Shown one piece after another: positions 54,971-62,796 of a stretch of DNA of 64,000 nt. The notes under the pieces were generated by a model, which did no database searches, had not been told where the DNA came from, and worked only from the letters and a program-made list of their open reading frames with translations. Each line of letters starts with the position of its first letter. The stretch's first letter is position 1. Origin of the DNA: Chryseobacterium camelliae (GTDB taxonomy: Bacteria > Bacteroidota > Bacteroidia > Flavobacteriales > Weeksellaceae); assembly GCF_002770595.1 (NCBI RefSeq), contig NZ_CP022986.1, positions 4,278,001-4,342,000 on the forward strand, given 5' to 3'. The position numbers were made by a program, and so were the translations under genes.

Positions 54971-56275
54971 ATGAAAAAAATATGGCAGAAAGACGATGCG
55001 GCCACCAATAAGCTCGTCAGTACATTTACAGTAGGCAAAGACCTTGAATTTGATGAGCGGCTGGCTAAATATGATGTTAAAGGTTCTATGGCCCACTGCA
55101 CCATGCTGGCTGAAGTCGGCATCATTTCTCAGGAAGAATCCCAGCAGATGCTTGCCGTGCTGGAAGAGGTTTTACGGGATATCGAATCCGGTACATTTGA
55201 GATAGATCCCCGTGCAGAAGACATCCACTCTCAGATTGAATCTGTTTTGATTGAAAGATTAGGTGATACAGGAAAAAAAATCCATACGGCAAGATCACGG
55301 AATGACCAGGTTTTGCTGGATATAAAGCTCTATGTACTGGATGAAATCCGCGAGATTGCGGCGTTGACCGATGAGTTTTTTCAGTTGCTGATTAGGCTGG
55401 CGGAACAGCATAAAAATGTGTTGCTACCGGGGTATACCCACCTGCAGATCGCGATGCCTTCCTCTTTCGGGCTTTGGTTCGGGGCGTATGCTGAGGCTCT
55501 GCTGGATGATGCTGAACTGCTGTTTTCGGTAAAAAATATCATCAGCAAAAATCCTTTGGGATCCGCAGCAGGGTACGGTTCCTCATTCCCGATTGACCGG
55601 GAGAGTACAACCTATCATCTGGGGTTTCAGTCCATGAATTATAATTCTGTCTACGCTCAGATGACCCGAGGTAAAACTGAGAAATTACTGGCTATGGCTA
55701 TGGCTGCAATAGCAGGGACGCTGGGGAAATTTGCCTACGACGTATGTTTATATTTAAGCCAGAATTTTGATTTCATCAGTTTTCCGAAAGAGTTCACCAC
55801 CGGAAGCAGTATTATGCCGCATAAGAAAAACCCGGACATCTTTGAACTTGTCCGCGCACGGTGCAACAGGATCCAGTCCCTCCCGAATGAGTTCATCCTG
55901 CTGACGAATAACCTACCTTCAGGATACCATCGAGATATGCAGCTGACCAAAGAGATCCTTTTCCCGGCCATTGACTCCTTGAAAGAATGTCTGGAAATCC
56001 TCAATTATACATTGCCGAATATCCAGGTGAAAGACGGGATCCTGGAGGATGAAAAGTACAAATACCTGTTCAGTGTGGAAAAGATCAATGAAGAGGTGAA
56101 GAACGGAAGTTCGTTCCGGGATGCCTATGTTAAGGTCGGACAGGAAATTGAAAATAATGCATTTGATTTTGAGGCACGGGAACTGCACCATACCCATCAG
56201 GGAAGCATAGGGAACCTGTGCCTGGATAAAATTGAATACCAGTTTAATAAAGTGAAGAATAAATTGCTGGGATGA
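54971..56275 (+). CDS. argH: argininosuccinate lyase
   Basis: A 434-residue enzyme of the fumarase/aspartase superfamily that splits argininosuccinate to arginine and fumarate. DIHSQIESVLIERLG and TARSRNDQVLLDIKLY are near the N-terminus, and TGSSIMPHKKNPDIFELVRA is the superfamily signature. It is last in the operon; no strong terminator was found in the 98 bases before the convergent lrp gene. Confidence 0.95.
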   Translation: MKKIWQKDDAATNKLVSTFTVGKDLEFDERLAKYDVKGSMAHCTMLAEVGIISQEESQQMLAVLEEVLRDIESGTFEIDPRAEDIHSQIESVLIERLGDTGKKIHTARSRNDQVLLDIKLYVLDEIREIAALTDEFFQLLIRLAEQHKNVLLPGYTHLQIAMPSSFGLWFGAYAEALLDDAELLFSVKNIISKNPLGSAAGYGSSFPIDRESTTYHLGFQSMNYNSVYAQMTRGKTEKLLAMAMAAIAGTLGKFAYDVCLYLSQNFDFISFPKEFTTGSSIMPHKKNPDIFELVRARCNRIQSLPNEFILLTNNLPSGYHRDMQLTKEILFPAIDSLKECLEILNYTLPNIQVKDGILEDEKYKYLFSVEKINEEVKNGSSFRDAYVKVGQEIENNAFDFEARELHHTHQGSIGNLCLDKIEYQFNKVKNKLLG

Positions 56276-56373
56276 TGATCAGGAATTGTATCATATAATA
56301 GGTTATTAATCCAAATGAAGCCCTACATGGTTTTTCAGCAGCATGTAACCCCTATATGCACTGGATTGTACAA

Positions 56374-56835
56374 TTATTCCAGGTCAATCTTAAATCGCGT
56401 CGATTTTTTCACCTCGTGCAATACGATAGAGCTGTGGTACTGACCTATATTCGGGATGTTGGAAATAACGTTTACGGCAAAGTCATTATAGGAATTAATG
56501 TCTTTGGCAATAATCTTCAGCATATAATCATATTCACCGGAAAGACTGATGATTTCCTGTACCTCGTCGTATTTGCCGATGTTTTTTTCAAAGGTTTCCA
56601 GGACTTTCTTCGACTGCTCTTTCAGGCGGACATTACAGTAGACAACGATATTCAGTCCCAGTTTTTCGCGGTTCAGGAGCCCGACATATTTTTCTATGAT
56701 GCCCTGTTTTTCAAGCTGCTTGATGCGCTCGTAGGTAGGGGTGAAAGTAAGGCCTATTTTTTCCGAAATCTCTTTAACAGATAGGGTAGAATCATTCTGG
56801 ATGATACTAAGAATCATTTTGTCTTTTAAGTCCAT
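56374..56835 (-). CDS. Lrp/AsnC-family transcriptional regulator
   Basis: A 153-residue amino-acid-sensing regulator: N-terminal winged helix (KEISEKIGLTFTPTYERIKQ, residues about 21-40) and a C-terminal RAM/ligand domain (EVQEIISLSGEYDYMLKI). It lies tail-to-tail with argH and is divergent from the pyr leader, so it could control arginine or pyrimidine genes, but no binding site could be picked out. Its -7 box TACTTTTG is on the minus strand at 56862-56869. Confidence 0.88.
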   Translation of the reverse strand: MDLKDKMILSIIQNDSTLSVKEISEKIGLTFTPTYERIKQLEKQGIIEKYVGLLNREKLGLNIVVYCNVRLKEQSKKVLETFEKNIGKYDEVQEIISLSGEYDYMLKIIAKDINSYNDFAVNVISNIPNIGQYHSSIVLHEVKKSTRFKIDLE

Positions 56836-56923
56836 AAATTAAGAATAACAAGGGGTGGCAACAAAAGTATTAAGAAAAAATGAAATAAAATTGATAAATT
56901 TCTTTAAATTATTGTCATATGAT

Positions 56924-56954
56924 TTTGCAGTTTTCGCTCTTTGTTGTATCTTTG
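56924..56954 (+). promoter_or_regulatory. promoter of the pyrB-carAB operon
   Basis: TTTG (56924-56927), exactly 19 bases, TATCTTTG (56947-56954): a perfect match to both Bacteroidota boxes. The ATG of the leader peptide follows six bases later, so the leader mRNA would start at or next to its start codon. Confidence 0.8.
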
Positions 56955-56960
56955 CACCTA

Positions 56961-57032
56961 ATGAATAACACAGTATTTATATCATTAGAATTACCGGGCG
57001 AAGACGCCCTTTACGATATTTATTTATTTTAA
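56961..57032 (+). CDS. pyr operon leader peptide
   Basis: A 23-codon open frame, [23 protein letters not shown], ending one base before the attenuator stem. The message has a small hairpin (GGGCG with CGCCC, 56996-57009) and then a U-rich end (GATATTTATTTATTTTAA) where RNA polymerase should pause when UTP is scarce. This is the same layout as the pyrBI leader of Escherichia coli, where a ribosome following closely stops the terminator from forming. There is no room for a Shine-Dalgarno site before the ATG, so translation would be leaderless. Coding status is inferred from position, not homology. Confidence 0.55.
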
Positions 57033-57060
57033 GCGAAGATATTTTCTTCGCTTTTTTTTT
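57033..57060 (+). terminator. attenuator terminator upstream of pyrB
   Basis: A perfect 7-bp stem GCGAAGA/TCTTCGC (57033-57039 with 57045-57051) followed by nine T, between the promoter and pyrB. A full terminator here makes sense only if it is conditional. A second copy of GCGAAGA is at 56998-57004 inside the leader hairpin and could pair with TCTTCGC instead, giving an antiterminator. Confidence 0.85.
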
Positions 57061-57078
57061 GTAAAAAAATTAGAAATT

Positions 57079-57969
57079 ATGTTTACGATTACAGAACTAA
57101 GTACAGAGAGGATCAACCGTATAGTGAAAGAAGCATTGGCATTTGCAGAAGGGAAGACTGCCAGAATTGAAGGCGAGGTTTTCTGTTCCAACCTATTCTT
57201 TGAAGACAGCACCAGGACCAAGACCAGCTTTGATATTGCCGAAAGGAAATTAGGCTTGCAGGTGGTTCCGTTTGATGCTTCCAACAGTTCGGTAAACAAA
57301 GGAGAAAGCTTATACGATACGGTAAAAACGCTTGAAAGCCTTGGGGTCAACCTGGTTGTGATCAGAGATAAAAAAGACCGGTACTTTGATGAGCTGAAAA
57401 ACATCAGGATTCCTGTAATCAACGGAGGAGACGGAACCGGGAACCACCCGTCGCAGTGTATGCTTGACCTGATGACCATTTACCAGGAATTCGGGAAGTT
57501 CGAAGGCCTTAAAGTAGGCATCGTAGGCGATGTAAAACACAGCAGGGTAGCCAATTCCAATGCAGAAGCCCTGAGAAGGCTGGGTGCAAAAGTTTACTTT
57601 TCAGGTCCTGAGCAATGGTTCGATGAAGGAGCACTGATCAACGGAACCTATCTAAGCGTTGATGAAATGATCCATGAAGTGGATGTGCTGATGCTGCTGA
57701 GGATACAGCACGAAAGGCACGATGCTAAAATGAGTTTCTCCGCTGCCGAATACCACAGAAAATACGGATTGACGAAAGAAAGAGAGAAAACAATGAAGAA
57801 GGAAGCGATCATCATGCATCCGGCACCGATCAACAGGGGAGTGGAAATTGATTCCGACCTGGTGGAATGCGAACGCTCAAGAGTCTTCAGGCAAATGCAG
57901 AACGGCGTCTTCGCAAGAATGGCGATTTTAAAAGAGGCACTGGAGAAAGAGGGACATACATTTAAATAA
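57079..57969 (+). CDS. pyrB: aspartate carbamoyltransferase catalytic chain
   Basis: A 296-residue enzyme for the first committed step of pyrimidine synthesis. [20 protein letters not shown] is the carbamoyl phosphate loop, [20 protein letters not shown] the aspartate-side block and [13 protein letters not shown] the C-terminal one. No pyrI regulatory chain is next to it, so control probably rests on the upstream attenuator. It heads pyrB-carA-carB; PyrB uses the carbamoyl phosphate that CarAB makes. Confidence 0.95.
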
Positions 57970-57970
57970 C

Positions 57971-58051
57971 TGTAAAATGTATGATGTACAATGTATATAG
58001 ATGTCAAAACGATTAAAATACATTCTACATCTTACAACCGACATAGTACAA
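57971..58051. repeat. inverted pair of degenerate TGTAnnATGTA words between pyrB and carA
   Basis: Left arm (57971-58005) contains TGTAAAATGTATGATGTACA; the right arm (58015-58051) has the complementary TACATTCTACATCTTACA. They can fold into an imperfect AT-rich hairpin within the operon spacer. No T-run follows the right arm closely, so a terminator role is doubtful. Confidence 0.6.
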
Positions 58052-58082
58052 GATAAAAAATAATAAGAGATAAAAGTTTACA

Positions 58083-59156
58083 ATGAAGAAAAAATTAATA
58101 CTGGAGTCCGGTGAAGTGTTTCATGGAAAAGGTTTCGGAGCAGAGTTGGAAACGGCAGGAGAAGTGGTTTTCAATACCGGAATGACAGGGTATCAGGAAC
58201 TTATTTCCGACCCTTCCTACTGCGGACAGATCGTCTGCATGACGTATCCGCTTATCGGTAATTATGGTATTAACCGTGACGATTATGAGAGTATTGAGCC
58301 GGCTATCAAAGGGCTGATCGTAAAAGAACTCTGCGATTTCCCATCCAATTTCCGTACTCAGATTACACTGGATGAACTGTTTAAAAAGAAGAACCTTTCC
58401 GGAATTTCCGGCATCGACACCAGAAGGCTGACAAGAGTACTCCGTAACCACGGAGTGGTAAAAGGTAAGATCGTGAATGCCGATGCAGATGAACATGCAG
58501 TCGTTTCAGAACTGGCATCAACCACATTCCCTACCAACCAGGTGGAAATGGTGTCTACCAAAACGTCTTACGCCAATCCGGGAAGAGGTTTAAAAGTGGT
58601 ATTGGTGGATTTCGGTTCCAAATTGGGGATCATCCGCGAACTCTCCCAGAGAAATTGCGACATCACCGTGGTCTCCCAGGATGTGACGGCAGAAGAAATC
58701 TTATTGATGGATCCGGATGGAGTCATGTTGTCCAACGGTCCCGGCGATCCTGAAGACAACCAGCATGCCCTGGAAATGATCCGCGGACTTTTAGGTAAAG
58801 TTCCGATCTTCGGAATCTGCTTAGGTCACCAGCTGATCGGTTTGGCCTGCGGTGCAAAAACATTCAAGCTGAAATTCGGACACAGAGGAGGAAACCATCC
58901 TGTTTTGGATTTGGAGAAAAACAAAGTGGCGATCACTTCCCAGAACCACGGATATGCGGTAGATCAGGAAAGTTTAACAGGAACAGATTTAATTGAAACA
59001 CACATCGCGCTGAACGACAGAACCAACGAAGGATTAAAACACAAAATCCACCCTTGCTTCTCCGTACAGTACCACCCGGAAGCAAGCCCGGGCCCGGAGG
59101 ATGCGAATTATCTGTTTGATGATTTTATTCAGATGATGGAGGATTTTAAGAAGTAA
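58083..59156 (+). CDS. carA: carbamoyl-phosphate synthase small subunit
   Basis: A 357-residue glutaminase subunit that feeds ammonia to CarB. The N-terminal half has FNTGMTGYQELISDPSY and GIDTRRLTRVLR; the C-terminal half is a class I glutamine amidotransferase with the nucleophile Cys246 in GICLGHQ and the His/Glu pair in SVQYHPEASPGP. Full length. It is separated from carB by an inserted gene. Confidence 0.96.
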   Translation: MKKKLILESGEVFHGKGFGAELETAGEVVFNTGMTGYQELISDPSYCGQIVCMTYPLIGNYGINRDDYESIEPAIKGLIVKELCDFPSNFRTQITLDELFKKKNLSGISGIDTRRLTRVLRNHGVVKGKIVNADADEHAVVSELASTTFPTNQVEMVSTKTSYANPGRGLKVVLVDFGSKLGIIRELSQRNCDITVVSQDVTAEEILLMDPDGVMLSNGPGDPEDNQHALEMIRGLLGKVPIFGICLGHQLIGLACGAKTFKLKFGHRGGNHPVLDLEKNKVAITSQNHGYAVDQESLTGTDLIETHIALNDRTNEGLKHKIHPCFSVQYHPEASPGPEDANYLFDDFIQMMEDFKK

Positions 59157-59159
59157 GCA

Positions 59160-59199
59160 AAGAACCAAGAAGCTAGACACAAGAATCAAGATTAACAGA
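59160..59199. repeat. left arm of the IVS-type cassette
   Basis: Built from CAAGA/ACCAAGA words (AAGAACCAAGAAGCTAGACA, then CAAGAATCAAGATT). It is imperfectly complementary to the block at 59559-59600 on the other side of the four-helix-bundle gene, sharing AAGAACCA and CAAGATT words in the opposite orientation. Confidence 0.65.
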
Positions 59200-59205
59200 T
59201 TACAG

Positions 59206-59556
59206 ATGCATCATTTTGAAAAATTATTGTTTTGGCAGAAATCTATGGTATTAGCGAAAAATATTTATTTAGCCTGCCAAAGAATTCATAATGATGAAAA
59301 ATTTGGATTGATTTCTCAAATTAAAAGGTCTGTTGTATCTATTCCATCGAATATTGCTGAAGGTTCAGGCAGAAATAGTGATAAAGAATTTAATCATTTT
59401 CTGGCAATTGCTTTAGGATCTGCATTTGAATTGCAGACACAGTTGATACTGACTAAAGAGTTAAATCTTTTACCTGAAGACGAAGTCAATGCTTTATTAG
59501 GTGATGTTGCTGAAGTTCAACGAATGATTTATTCATTTAAAAATAATTTAAAATAA
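59206..59556 (+). CDS. four-helix-bundle protein (23S rRNA intervening-sequence type)
   Basis: A 116-residue all-helical protein of the S23/IVS family (LISQIKRSVVSIPSNIAEGS, residues about 38-57, is its signature). Relatives are encoded in intervening sequences inside 23S rRNA genes and in isolated copies across Bacteroidota genomes, and a related fold (Avd) works with diversity-generating retroelements; their cellular job is not settled. Here it splits carA from carB, has clearly more AT-rich codons than either neighbour, and is bordered by inverted word repeats. No reverse transcriptase or transposase is near. It looks like a recent mobile insertion that keeps the operon in one direction. 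Confidence 0.88.
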   Translation: MHHFEKLLFWQKSMVLAKNIYLACQRIHNDEKFGLISQIKRSVVSIPSNIAEGSGRNSDKEFNHFLAIALGSAFELQTQLILTKELNLLPEDEVNALLGDVAEVQRMIYSFKNNLK

Positions 59557-59558
59557 AA

Positions 59559-59600
59559 AGTCTAAGATCTTGGCTCCTGGTTCTTGAATCTTGACTCTCT
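59559..59600. repeat. right arm of the IVS-type cassette
   Basis: Reads AGTCTAAGATCTTGGCTCCT then GGTTCTTGAATCTTGACTCT; its complement resembles the left arm at 59160-59199 (AAGAACCA, CAAGATT). Begins three bases after the stop codon of the cassette gene and ends 13 bases before the carB ATG. Confidence 0.65.
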
Positions 59601-59613
59601 AATAAAAATAAAA

Positions 59614-62600
59614 ATGGCAAAACGTACAGATATAAAAACAATTTTAGTAATCGGTTCCGGGCCTATCATCATTGGTCAGGCGGCAGAATTTGATTATGCG
59701 GGAACACAGGCTTGTCTGTCTCTGAGAGAAGAAGGCTACAAGGTAATTTTGATCAACTCCAATCCTGCAACCATCATGACGGATGTGGAAATCGCAGATA
59801 AAGTGTATATCGAGCCGATTTCCCTGCAATTTGTAAGTCACATCATCAGAAAAGAGCGTCCGGATGCACTTTTACCAACTCTTGGCGGACAGACCGGACT
59901 GAATATGGCGGTAGAGCTGGAGAAATCAGGAATCCTTGAAGAGTGTAAAGTGGAGGTTTTGGGAACAAAGCTTTCGGCTATCAACAGGGCGGAAGACAGG
60001 GACCTGTTCCGTGAACTGATGAGAGAGCTGAATGAACCTGTTCCTGAATCGGATATTGTAAATACTGTAGAGGGGGCCTTAAGTTTTGCAGAAGAAATAG
60101 GGTATCCTGTAATTGTCCGTCCAGCATTCACGATGGGTGGAACAGGAGGTGGAATAGCTTCTAATGAAACGGAACTGAAAGAAATTGCGGAACTAGGATT
60201 AAAATACAGTCCTGTAACGCAGTGTCTTATTGAACGGTCCATCGCAGGCTTCAAGGAAATTGAATACGAGGTGATGCGTGATGCCAACGACAATGCGATT
60301 GTGGTGTGTAACATGGAAAACATTGACCCGGTGGGCGTGCATACCGGAGATTCCATCGTGGTTGCGCCTTCCCAGACACTTTCCGACAGGGAATACCAAT
60401 TGCTGAGAAATGCTTCCCTGAAAATCATCAGGGCACTGGGAATTGAAGGAGGATGTAACGTGCAGCTGGCTTTAGACCCGCATTCATTCGACTATTACAT
60501 CATCGAGGTAAACCCAAGGGTTTCCCGTTCATCCGCTTTGGCATCAAAAGCAACCGGTTACCCGATCGCAAAGATTGCTGCGAAAATCGCGGTAGGACTT
60601 ACCCTTGACGAAATTATGAACCCGGTAACCGGGAAGACATACGCCTGCTTTGAACCGGCTCTGGACTATGTGGTAACAAAATTCCCAAGGTTCCCGTTCG
60701 ATAAATTTGAAACGGCAGACAGGAGATTATCTACCCAGATGAAAGCAACCGGTGAAGTAATGGCTATCGGAAGAAACTTCGAGGAATCTCTACAGAAAGC
60801 CATTCGTTCCCTGGAAACCGGCATCAGGCATTTAGGGCTGAAAACCAAACAGACCTTGGCATTGACGGCGGAAGAAATCGAAAGAAGGATCAGGGTGTGC
60901 GATGATGAAAGGTTATTCATCATCGGTGATGCTTTACGAAAAGGATACGACTGGGAACAGATCGTGGAATGGAGCAAAATCGATAAGTTCTTCATCTGGA
61001 AGTTGAAAAAGCTGGTCGATTTCGAACAAACGATTGTCAACAACAAATTTGACAAAGAAACATTAATTGAAGCTAAGAAACTAGGCTTTGCGGATCTAAA
61101 TATTGCCCACCTTTGGGAGATTACCCAAAGAGAAGTATTCAATTTCAGAAAAGAAAACGGAATCATGCCGGTGTATAAGATGGTAGATACCTGCGCCGCT
61201 GAATTTGAATCTGAAACTCCATATTTCTATGGAACGTACGAAGAAGAAAACGAAAGCGTGGTTTCAGACAAAGAGAAAATCATCGTACTGGGTTCCGGAC
61301 CGATCAGGATCGGGCAGGGAGTTGAGTTTGATTATGCGACGGTTCACTCAGTTTGGGCGATCAAAGAAATGGGCTACGAAGCGATCATCATCAACAACAA
61401 CCCGGAAACGGTTTCCACCGACTTTTCGATTTCGGATAAACTGTATTTCGAGCCGCTGACAGAAGAAGATGTCATGAACATTATCGAGCTGGAAAAACCG
61501 AAAGGGGTTGTGGTACAGTTCGGGGGCCAGACCGCGATCAACCTGGCTGATAAATTAGCTTCACATGGTGTTCAGATTTTAGGGACTACCCTGGAAGACC
61601 TGGACAGAGCAGAAAACAGGGATAAGTTTGAAAAAGCGCTTCAGGAAATGCAGATTCCTCAGCCGCTCGGGAAAACATCCGTTTCTAAAGAAGAAGCGAT
61701 CAAAATTGCCAATGAAATCGGATATCCGGTATTGGTTCGCCCGAGTTATGTACTGGGAGGCCGTGCCATGGAAATCGTGTACACGGAAACAGAACTCGCC
61801 CATTACATGGAAAACGCAGTGGAGGCTAGTCCTAAACATCCGGTACTGGTTGACAAATATATGGTTGGAAAAGAAGTAGAGGTAGATGCCATCTGCGACG
61901 GTGAAACGGTAGTGATTCCGGGAATCATGGAGCACATCGAGAGAGCAGGGGTGCACTCCGGAGATTCTATCGCAGTATATCCTCCGCAGAATATTTCGCA
62001 GGGGGAAATTGATACGCTGGTAGATTACACCAAAAGACTGGCTAAAGGACTTAATGTAGTAGGACTTATGAATATCCAGTATGTCCTGTTTGAAGGGAAT
62101 GTCTATGTCATCGAAGTTAACCCTCGTTCATCCAGAACCGTTCCTTTCTTATCTAAAATCACGGAGGTTCCGATGGCTAACCTGGCTACCAAAGCCATTC
62201 TGGGCCAGAAATTGAAAGATCTCGGCTACGAAAGCGGCCTGGTTCCGAAAAAAGAAGGCGTTTTCGTAAAAGTTCCGGTATTCTCTTTCTCAAAACTGAC
62301 GAAGGTGGATATCTCTTTAGGCCCTGAAATGAAATCGACCGGAGAAGTAATGGGTAAAGATACCACGCTGGAGAAAGCCCTTTACAAAGGACTGGTAGCA
62401 GCAGGAAGAAAAGTGCCGATGCACGGCTCCATCCTGTTCACGGTAGCGGATAAGCATAAGCAGGAAGCTGCTGATCTGGCGGCCAGGTTCCATGAAGTAG
62501 GTTTCAGGATCTGGGCAACGGAAGGGACTGCCAGATTCTTTGAAGAAAAAGGGATTCCTTGCAAAATAGGATATAAAATAGGAGAAGAAGATGTGAATCT

Positions 62601-62796
62601 GATTGACCTGATCCAGAAAGGAAAAGTACAGTATGTAGTCAATACCATGACCAAAGGGAAACGGGCTGAAAGAGACGGATTCCAGATCAGAAGGATGAGC
62701 GTTGAAAACGGCGTTCCTTGTCTGACCTCCATGGACACGGTAGAAGCCATCCTGAAAGTGATTGAAAGCATGAGCTTCAAGATGGAAACCATGTAA
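59614..62796 (+). CDS. carB: carbamoyl-phosphate synthase large subunit
   Basis: A 1060-residue enzyme making carbamoyl phosphate from bicarbonate, ammonia and two ATP. The start at 59614 ([20 protein letters not shown]) is the conserved one; a frame ten codons upstream would read the repeat arm. Two ATP-grasp halves are clear (residues about 1-400 and 540-930, with [14 protein letters not shown] and [15 protein letters not shown]), then an MGS-like allosteric domain (about 935-1060, [20 protein letters not shown]) which in relatives senses UMP and ornithine. It supplies both PyrB and ArgF'. Confidence 0.96.

Follow-up and report, generated by a model that had tools for sequence, protein, structure and literature searches.

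Layout of the pyrB leader

In the window, by which we mean the whole 64-kb stretch of Chryseobacterium DNA that was analysed, the aspartate carbamoyltransferase gene pyrB is preceded by a promoter box, a short open frame, a small hairpin, a U-rich stretch and an intrinsic terminator. This order had been recognised in the original prediction, and all of its parts were found in their places and are conserved across the family. One adjustment concerns the terminator, which was thought to begin one base after the frame; its stem actually begins inside the stop codon, at 57031. The features of the locus are as follows.

56374-56835, - strand: AsnC/Lrp-type regulator gene, divergent from pyrB
56924-56927, + strand: TTTG at the -33 position, a weak feature, seen 18-19 nt before the box in only 5 of 24 genera
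56947-56954, + strand: -7 box TATCTTTG, fitting the Bacteroidota sigma-A consensus TAnnTTTG, at the same place in 48 of 48 leaders
56959-56961, + strand: predicted transcription start, from the box-to-start spacing, 0-2 nt before the leader ATG
56961-57032, + strand: leader peptide frame of 23 codons with a putative leaderless start, ATG at 56961 and TAA at 57030-57032, kept in 47 of 48 leaders
56996-57009, + strand: mid-frame hairpin GGGCG-AAGA-CGCCC, probably a pause hairpin, with a hairpin at this place in 23 of 25 genera
57010-57029, + strand: U-rich tract, the proposed UTP-sensitive pause region (U 0.48 in the last 24 nt)
57031-57060, + strand: intrinsic terminator AAGCGAAGA-TATTT-TCTTCGCTT and U run, with the stem at 57031-57053, nine U's at 57052-57060 and the 5' arm overlapping the stop codon
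57079-57969, + strand: pyrB, aspartate carbamoyltransferase, ATG at 57079
58083-59156, + strand: carA, a probable downstream operon gene
59614-62796, + strand: carB, a probable downstream operon gene

The promoter had been described as TTTG-N19-TATCTTTG. This spacing is confirmed in the window, and the box, which is the sole TAnnTTTG box on the + strand within 55200-59743, is kept in every leader; the TTTG at -33, however, recurs in few genera. The TAnnTTTG box occupies positions -12 to -5 in Flavobacterium psychrophilum (PMC9723704) and is 4-5 nt away from the transcription start in F. johnsoniae (PMC6847099). These published spacings would place the start of the pyrB leader transcript at 56959-56961, with the AUG 0-2 nt from the 5' end. 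The leader ATG stands six bases past the box in the window, as had been noted, and 5-7 nt 3' of it in all 48 leaders, and we infer that the AUG is translated leaderless, without a Shine-Dalgarno site. Leaderless mRNAs are a minority in Bacteroidota (5.5% of mRNAs in F. psychrophilum, PMC9723704; 5' UTRs shorter than 10 nt account for ~3.7% in B. thetaiotaomicron, PMC7366714), so a predicted leaderless start that is kept in 25 genera is notable. UTP-dependent start-site choice or slippage at the promoter was also considered and set aside, as the start region has no conserved T run.

The folded leader RNA is more stable than 200 of 200 dinucleotide shuffles (z -3.8). Both strands of the 64-kb window were scanned for a box with an ATG at 5-7 nt and a frame open to a strong terminator; the pyrB leader was the single match, and 30 shuffled windows gave none. 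No second copy of the element was found in the same Chryseobacterium genome. An inverted repeat, TAATGAATAA...TTATaTCATTA, surrounds the leader ATG at 56959-56988 and is invariant within Chryseobacterium.

Downstream, carA follows pyrB in 80 of 80 named loci (L031-L110) and no TAnnTTTG box occurs on the + strand between pyrB and carB, so that carAB are probably under the same control. Between carA and carB the window carries a 23S rRNA intervening-sequence gene (four-helix bundle, PF05635; 59206-59556). A relative is found at this place in 24 of the 68 Chryseobacterium loci in which carB was reached and is undetected in the other 44, often with a gap of about 160 nt, which indicates that the gene comes and goes. 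On the other side, the AsnC/Lrp-type gene is flanked by the pyrB leader and an argininosuccinate lyase-like gene.

Conservation in Chryseobacterium and across the family

Every one of the 79 named Chryseobacterium loci that reach far enough upstream carries the element. Among 94 matched Chryseobacterium sequences the frame is kept (L096 has an in-frame insertion of 3 nt) and the last two leader codons vary; the stop lies mostly at the terminator, and inside or beyond it in L049 and L071. A covariance model built from Chryseobacterium recovered the element in 124 of 200 genomes and 14 of 33 genera of the family searched (f1), which was taken as Weeksellaceae. Of 20 match regions that were fetched, 19 sit immediately 5' of pyrB; the exception is a weak second match in one genome (G257, L168), where no pyrB was found and which was taken as chance. 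Genera missed by this first model also carry the element 5' of pyrB when their upstream regions are read. All 48 leaders examined, from 25 genera, lie upstream of pyrB; their anatomy is a TAnnTTTG box, an ATG 5-7 nt on, a frame usually of 22-26 codons, a small G+C hairpin, a U-rich tail and a terminator.

The leader peptides mostly differ in sequence between genera, many being unrelated across the 25, and the anatomy stays the same. In 47 of 48 leaders no stop interrupts the ATG frame until at most 12 nt before the terminator arm; frame 2 is open in 15 of 48 and frame 1 in 2 of 48, the latter being a biased control because ATGA contains a stop in frame 1. Counted by genus, the open frame occurs in 24 of 25 against 7.3 expected from dinucleotide shuffles (P about 1e-12, which overstates significance because genera were treated as independent). 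Lack of conservation of the frame or the terminator in close relatives had been named in the original prediction as a refutation, and the outcome favours the prediction. In L204, from one genus, the stop lies 17 nt before the terminator. Some frames stop at the terminator and others pass through it, as pyrL of Escherichia coli does, which suggests that the property being kept is the ability of a ribosome to reach the terminator. The distance from the ATG to the terminator arm is narrow (67-84 nt).

Likewise, 23 of 25 genera have a hairpin that ends 16-27 nt 5' of the terminator arm, whereas shuffles would give 5.2 (P about 1e-14, again overstated by treating genera as independent); by the criterion used, g16 and g13 show no clear hairpin. 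Its stems are unrelated between genera, for example GGGCG/CGCCC, GAAGGGC/GTCCTTC, TCGGA/TCCGA and CAACTCA/TGAGTTG. Structure is thus kept and sequence is not, as one would sooner expect of a pause hairpin than of a binding site. The U content averages 0.48 over genera in the last 24 nt of the frame and 0.30 in the remainder, and the tract before the terminator is A-rich as well. In the terminator stem, substitutions in other genera preserve pairing (e.g., ACGAAGTC/GGCTTCGT and GCGAGGA/TCCTCGC).

Could this arrangement be no more than an ordinary terminator of an upstream transcript combined with a chance frame? The intergenic region of the window is AT-rich, which would favour such an origin, but frame, hairpin and spacing are conserved far above shuffles, and since the upstream AsnC/Lrp gene is divergent there is no obvious upstream transcript to terminate. 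We consider this explanation hardly credible, and conclude that a family-wide leader-peptide attenuator of pyrB is real. One part of the original prediction did not hold: the copy of GCGAAGA at 56998-57004, put forward as an antiterminator, occurs in 3 of 49 distinct Chryseobacterium leaders, those of the window and of its two closest relatives. It is no feature of other genera, nor do leaders in general carry a long copy of the terminator arm.

Variants of the arrangement were also seen. Genome G161 has two pyrB genes, L160 and L223, with about 73% and 62% identity to the query; both are preceded by a leader of their own. In genus g17 (L211-L213, L231 and L232) pyrB is about 52% identical; longer frames, apparently started by TTG, pass through a AACATCTTA-type terminator. 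There is no clear box with ATG in this genus and the terminator differs, and the arrangement is possibly a diverged form of the same attenuator. At L230 no terminator was seen upstream of pyrB.

Proposed mode of action

We propose ribosome-mediated transcription attenuation in response to UTP, on the pattern of the E. coli pyrBI leader, and give this reading a probability of about 0.75. The polymerase would start 0-2 nt before the AUG, and ribosomes would load on the 5' end of the RNA without a Shine-Dalgarno site. With ample UTP, the polymerase would run fast through the U-rich tract and leave the ribosome lagging; the terminator would then fold and end transcription ahead of pyrB. With little UTP, the polymerase would pause within this tract, probably because of the hairpin immediately 5' of it. 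The first ribosome would then draw level, stand on the last codons or the stop and cover the 5' arm of the terminator (57031-57039), giving read-through into pyrB and probably into carA-carB as well. The element therefore most likely raises pyrB transcription at low UTP. In E. coli, termination is suppressed when a stop codon lies a few nt ahead of the terminator and not when the distance exceeds about 27 nt, and coupling within the first 100 bp requires pause sites, pyrBI being an example (PMC4824070). For Bacteroidota, no study demonstrating transcription-translation coupling was found.

The likeness to the pyrBI (pyrL) leader of E. coli and Salmonella is one of anatomy. Both have a leader frame between promoter and pyrB, conserved here 5' of a pyrimidine gene; a small hairpin (GCGTC..GACGC in E. 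coli pyrL), here a candidate pause hairpin; a pyrimidine-rich or, here, U-rich tract before the terminator; and an intrinsic terminator reached by the frame, which in 47 of our 48 leaders would let a ribosome come to its 5' arm. The downstream gene is aspartate carbamoyltransferase in both. E. coli pyrL, however, has a Shine-Dalgarno site and 44 codons and passes through its terminator, whereas the frames described here are predicted to be leaderless, are usually of 22-26 codons and usually stop at the terminator. The terminator arm begins 67-84 nt after the AUG here and 88 nt after it in E. coli pyrL, and the leader sequences show no likeness.

The UTP-sensitive attenuator of E. coli pyrE/rph also depends on ribosomes, as the nearness of the ribosome to the polymerase decides termination there. 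Ribosome closeness would decide in the pyrB leader too, with a dedicated 23-codon leader in place of the full gene rph. An alternative is that the leader is a translation-coupled terminator responding to how fast transcription and translation run relative to each other in general, or to ATP as well as UTP, and not to pyrimidines specifically. Identical anatomy would react to anything that slows the polymerase relative to the ribosome, and the tail is both A- and U-rich. We regard this as unlikely: the element is confined to pyrB, its U content is raised and PyrR is missing in a complementary pattern (see below), all of which point to pyrimidine control.

Short translated leaders with terminators are also typical of amino-acid operons such as trp and his, and leader-peptide attenuation has been suggested for operons of this kind in F. 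psychrophilum (PMC9723704). If the pyrB leader belonged to this type, a ribosome would stall at certain leader codons when charged tRNA is scarce, and Phe, Tyr and Ile are indeed common in the last nine codons (23, 20 and 20 of 25 genera, respectively). These residues nevertheless follow from U-rich codons. No single residue recurs in every genus, a run of Asp or Arg codons that would suit the pathway is lacking, and the last codons vary even within one genus (LF, CY, YY, LY, L-stop). The pyrB leader also has no conserved alternative hairpin or antiterminator pairing with the terminator, in contrast to the amino-acid attenuators, and we judge amino-acid control very improbable.

Binding of a protein or small ligand to the leader RNA, in the manner of PyrR or a riboswitch, could set the terminator. 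In Bacillus, PyrR controls pyr genes via a terminator before the coding sequence, a trait that our locus shares. Nucleotide conservation within Chryseobacterium is very high, including third codon positions and the inverted repeat at 56959-56988, which speaks for such binding. Across genera, however, hairpin loop and stem vary freely and there is no fixed RNA binding loop, and a translated frame, which such a mechanism would make unnecessary, is conserved instead. The leader has no match to a known Rfam cis-regulatory family at gathering score, and PyrR is absent from the family. The 5' hairpin around the ATG has compensated pairing in a few relatives (e.g., L153) but is no more stable than shuffles over genera (mean z -0.09), and it was rejected as a general part of the element. 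Direct RNA binding is accordingly an explanation to which we give very little credence.

Distribution relative to PyrR and origin of the leader

With a second covariance model, 59 of 348 order genomes proved to carry the element, every one of them in Weeksellaceae; a class-wide search with it (R2) matched only two Chryseobacterium, the model having little power outside the family. PyrR shows the complementary pattern. It exceeds the cut-off in none of 110 Weeksellaceae genomes and in 119 of 198 genomes of the order (about 170 outside the family), and none of the matches listed is in Weeksellaceae. In other families of the order, PyrR adjoins pyrB in the loci whose coordinates were compared. 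The window's own genome has no PyrR, its seven PRTases reading as other enzymes. For seven genera of the family (g8, g10, g19, g21, g28, g29 and g31) the sampled genomes gave neither a clear pyrB match nor the element, and these may be without de novo pyrimidine synthesis or may have a divergent gene.

The family's PyrB shows about 42% identity to the PyrB proteins of other families of the order and 31% to that of E. coli. It scores far higher against PDB chains 3r7d and 2at2, which we take to be B. subtilis-type PyrB chains, than against E. coli chains, and a gene replacement is possible. As this PyrB is unlike that of E. coli, the leader is best seen as a variant that evolved independently and has a predicted leaderless start. 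The distant PyrB, together with detection of the element in this family only, suggests convergence with the E. coli leader.

We lean towards the view that one Bacteroidota family independently evolved a UTP-sensing leader-peptide attenuator, which replaced PyrR and relies on leaderless translation beginning at the nascent 5' end. If so, transcription and translation would be tightly coupled in these bacteria, the pyrBI strategy would have been invented a second, independent time in another phylum, and there would be an explanation of how pyrimidine synthesis may be regulated in an entire family that lacks PyrR. One short reporter could address both polymerase-ribosome coupling in Bacteroidota and whether a leaderless AUG is fast enough for kinetic control. 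No paper on a pyr leader in Weeksellaceae or related flavobacteria was found in the open-access literature searched, which leaves uncontradicted the original statement that no pyr attenuator of this type had been described in Bacteroidota. What is new is the predicted leaderless start, the frame that usually ends at the terminator and the occurrence where PyrR is absent.

Upstream of the other pyrimidine locus inspected in this genome (L113), no comparable leader was seen by eye. There, pyrE and pyrF are apparently fused, with orotate phosphoribosyltransferase and OMP decarboxylase read from the sequence as one 459-aa frame (L113 1324-2703, about 1972708-1974087 of the same genome).
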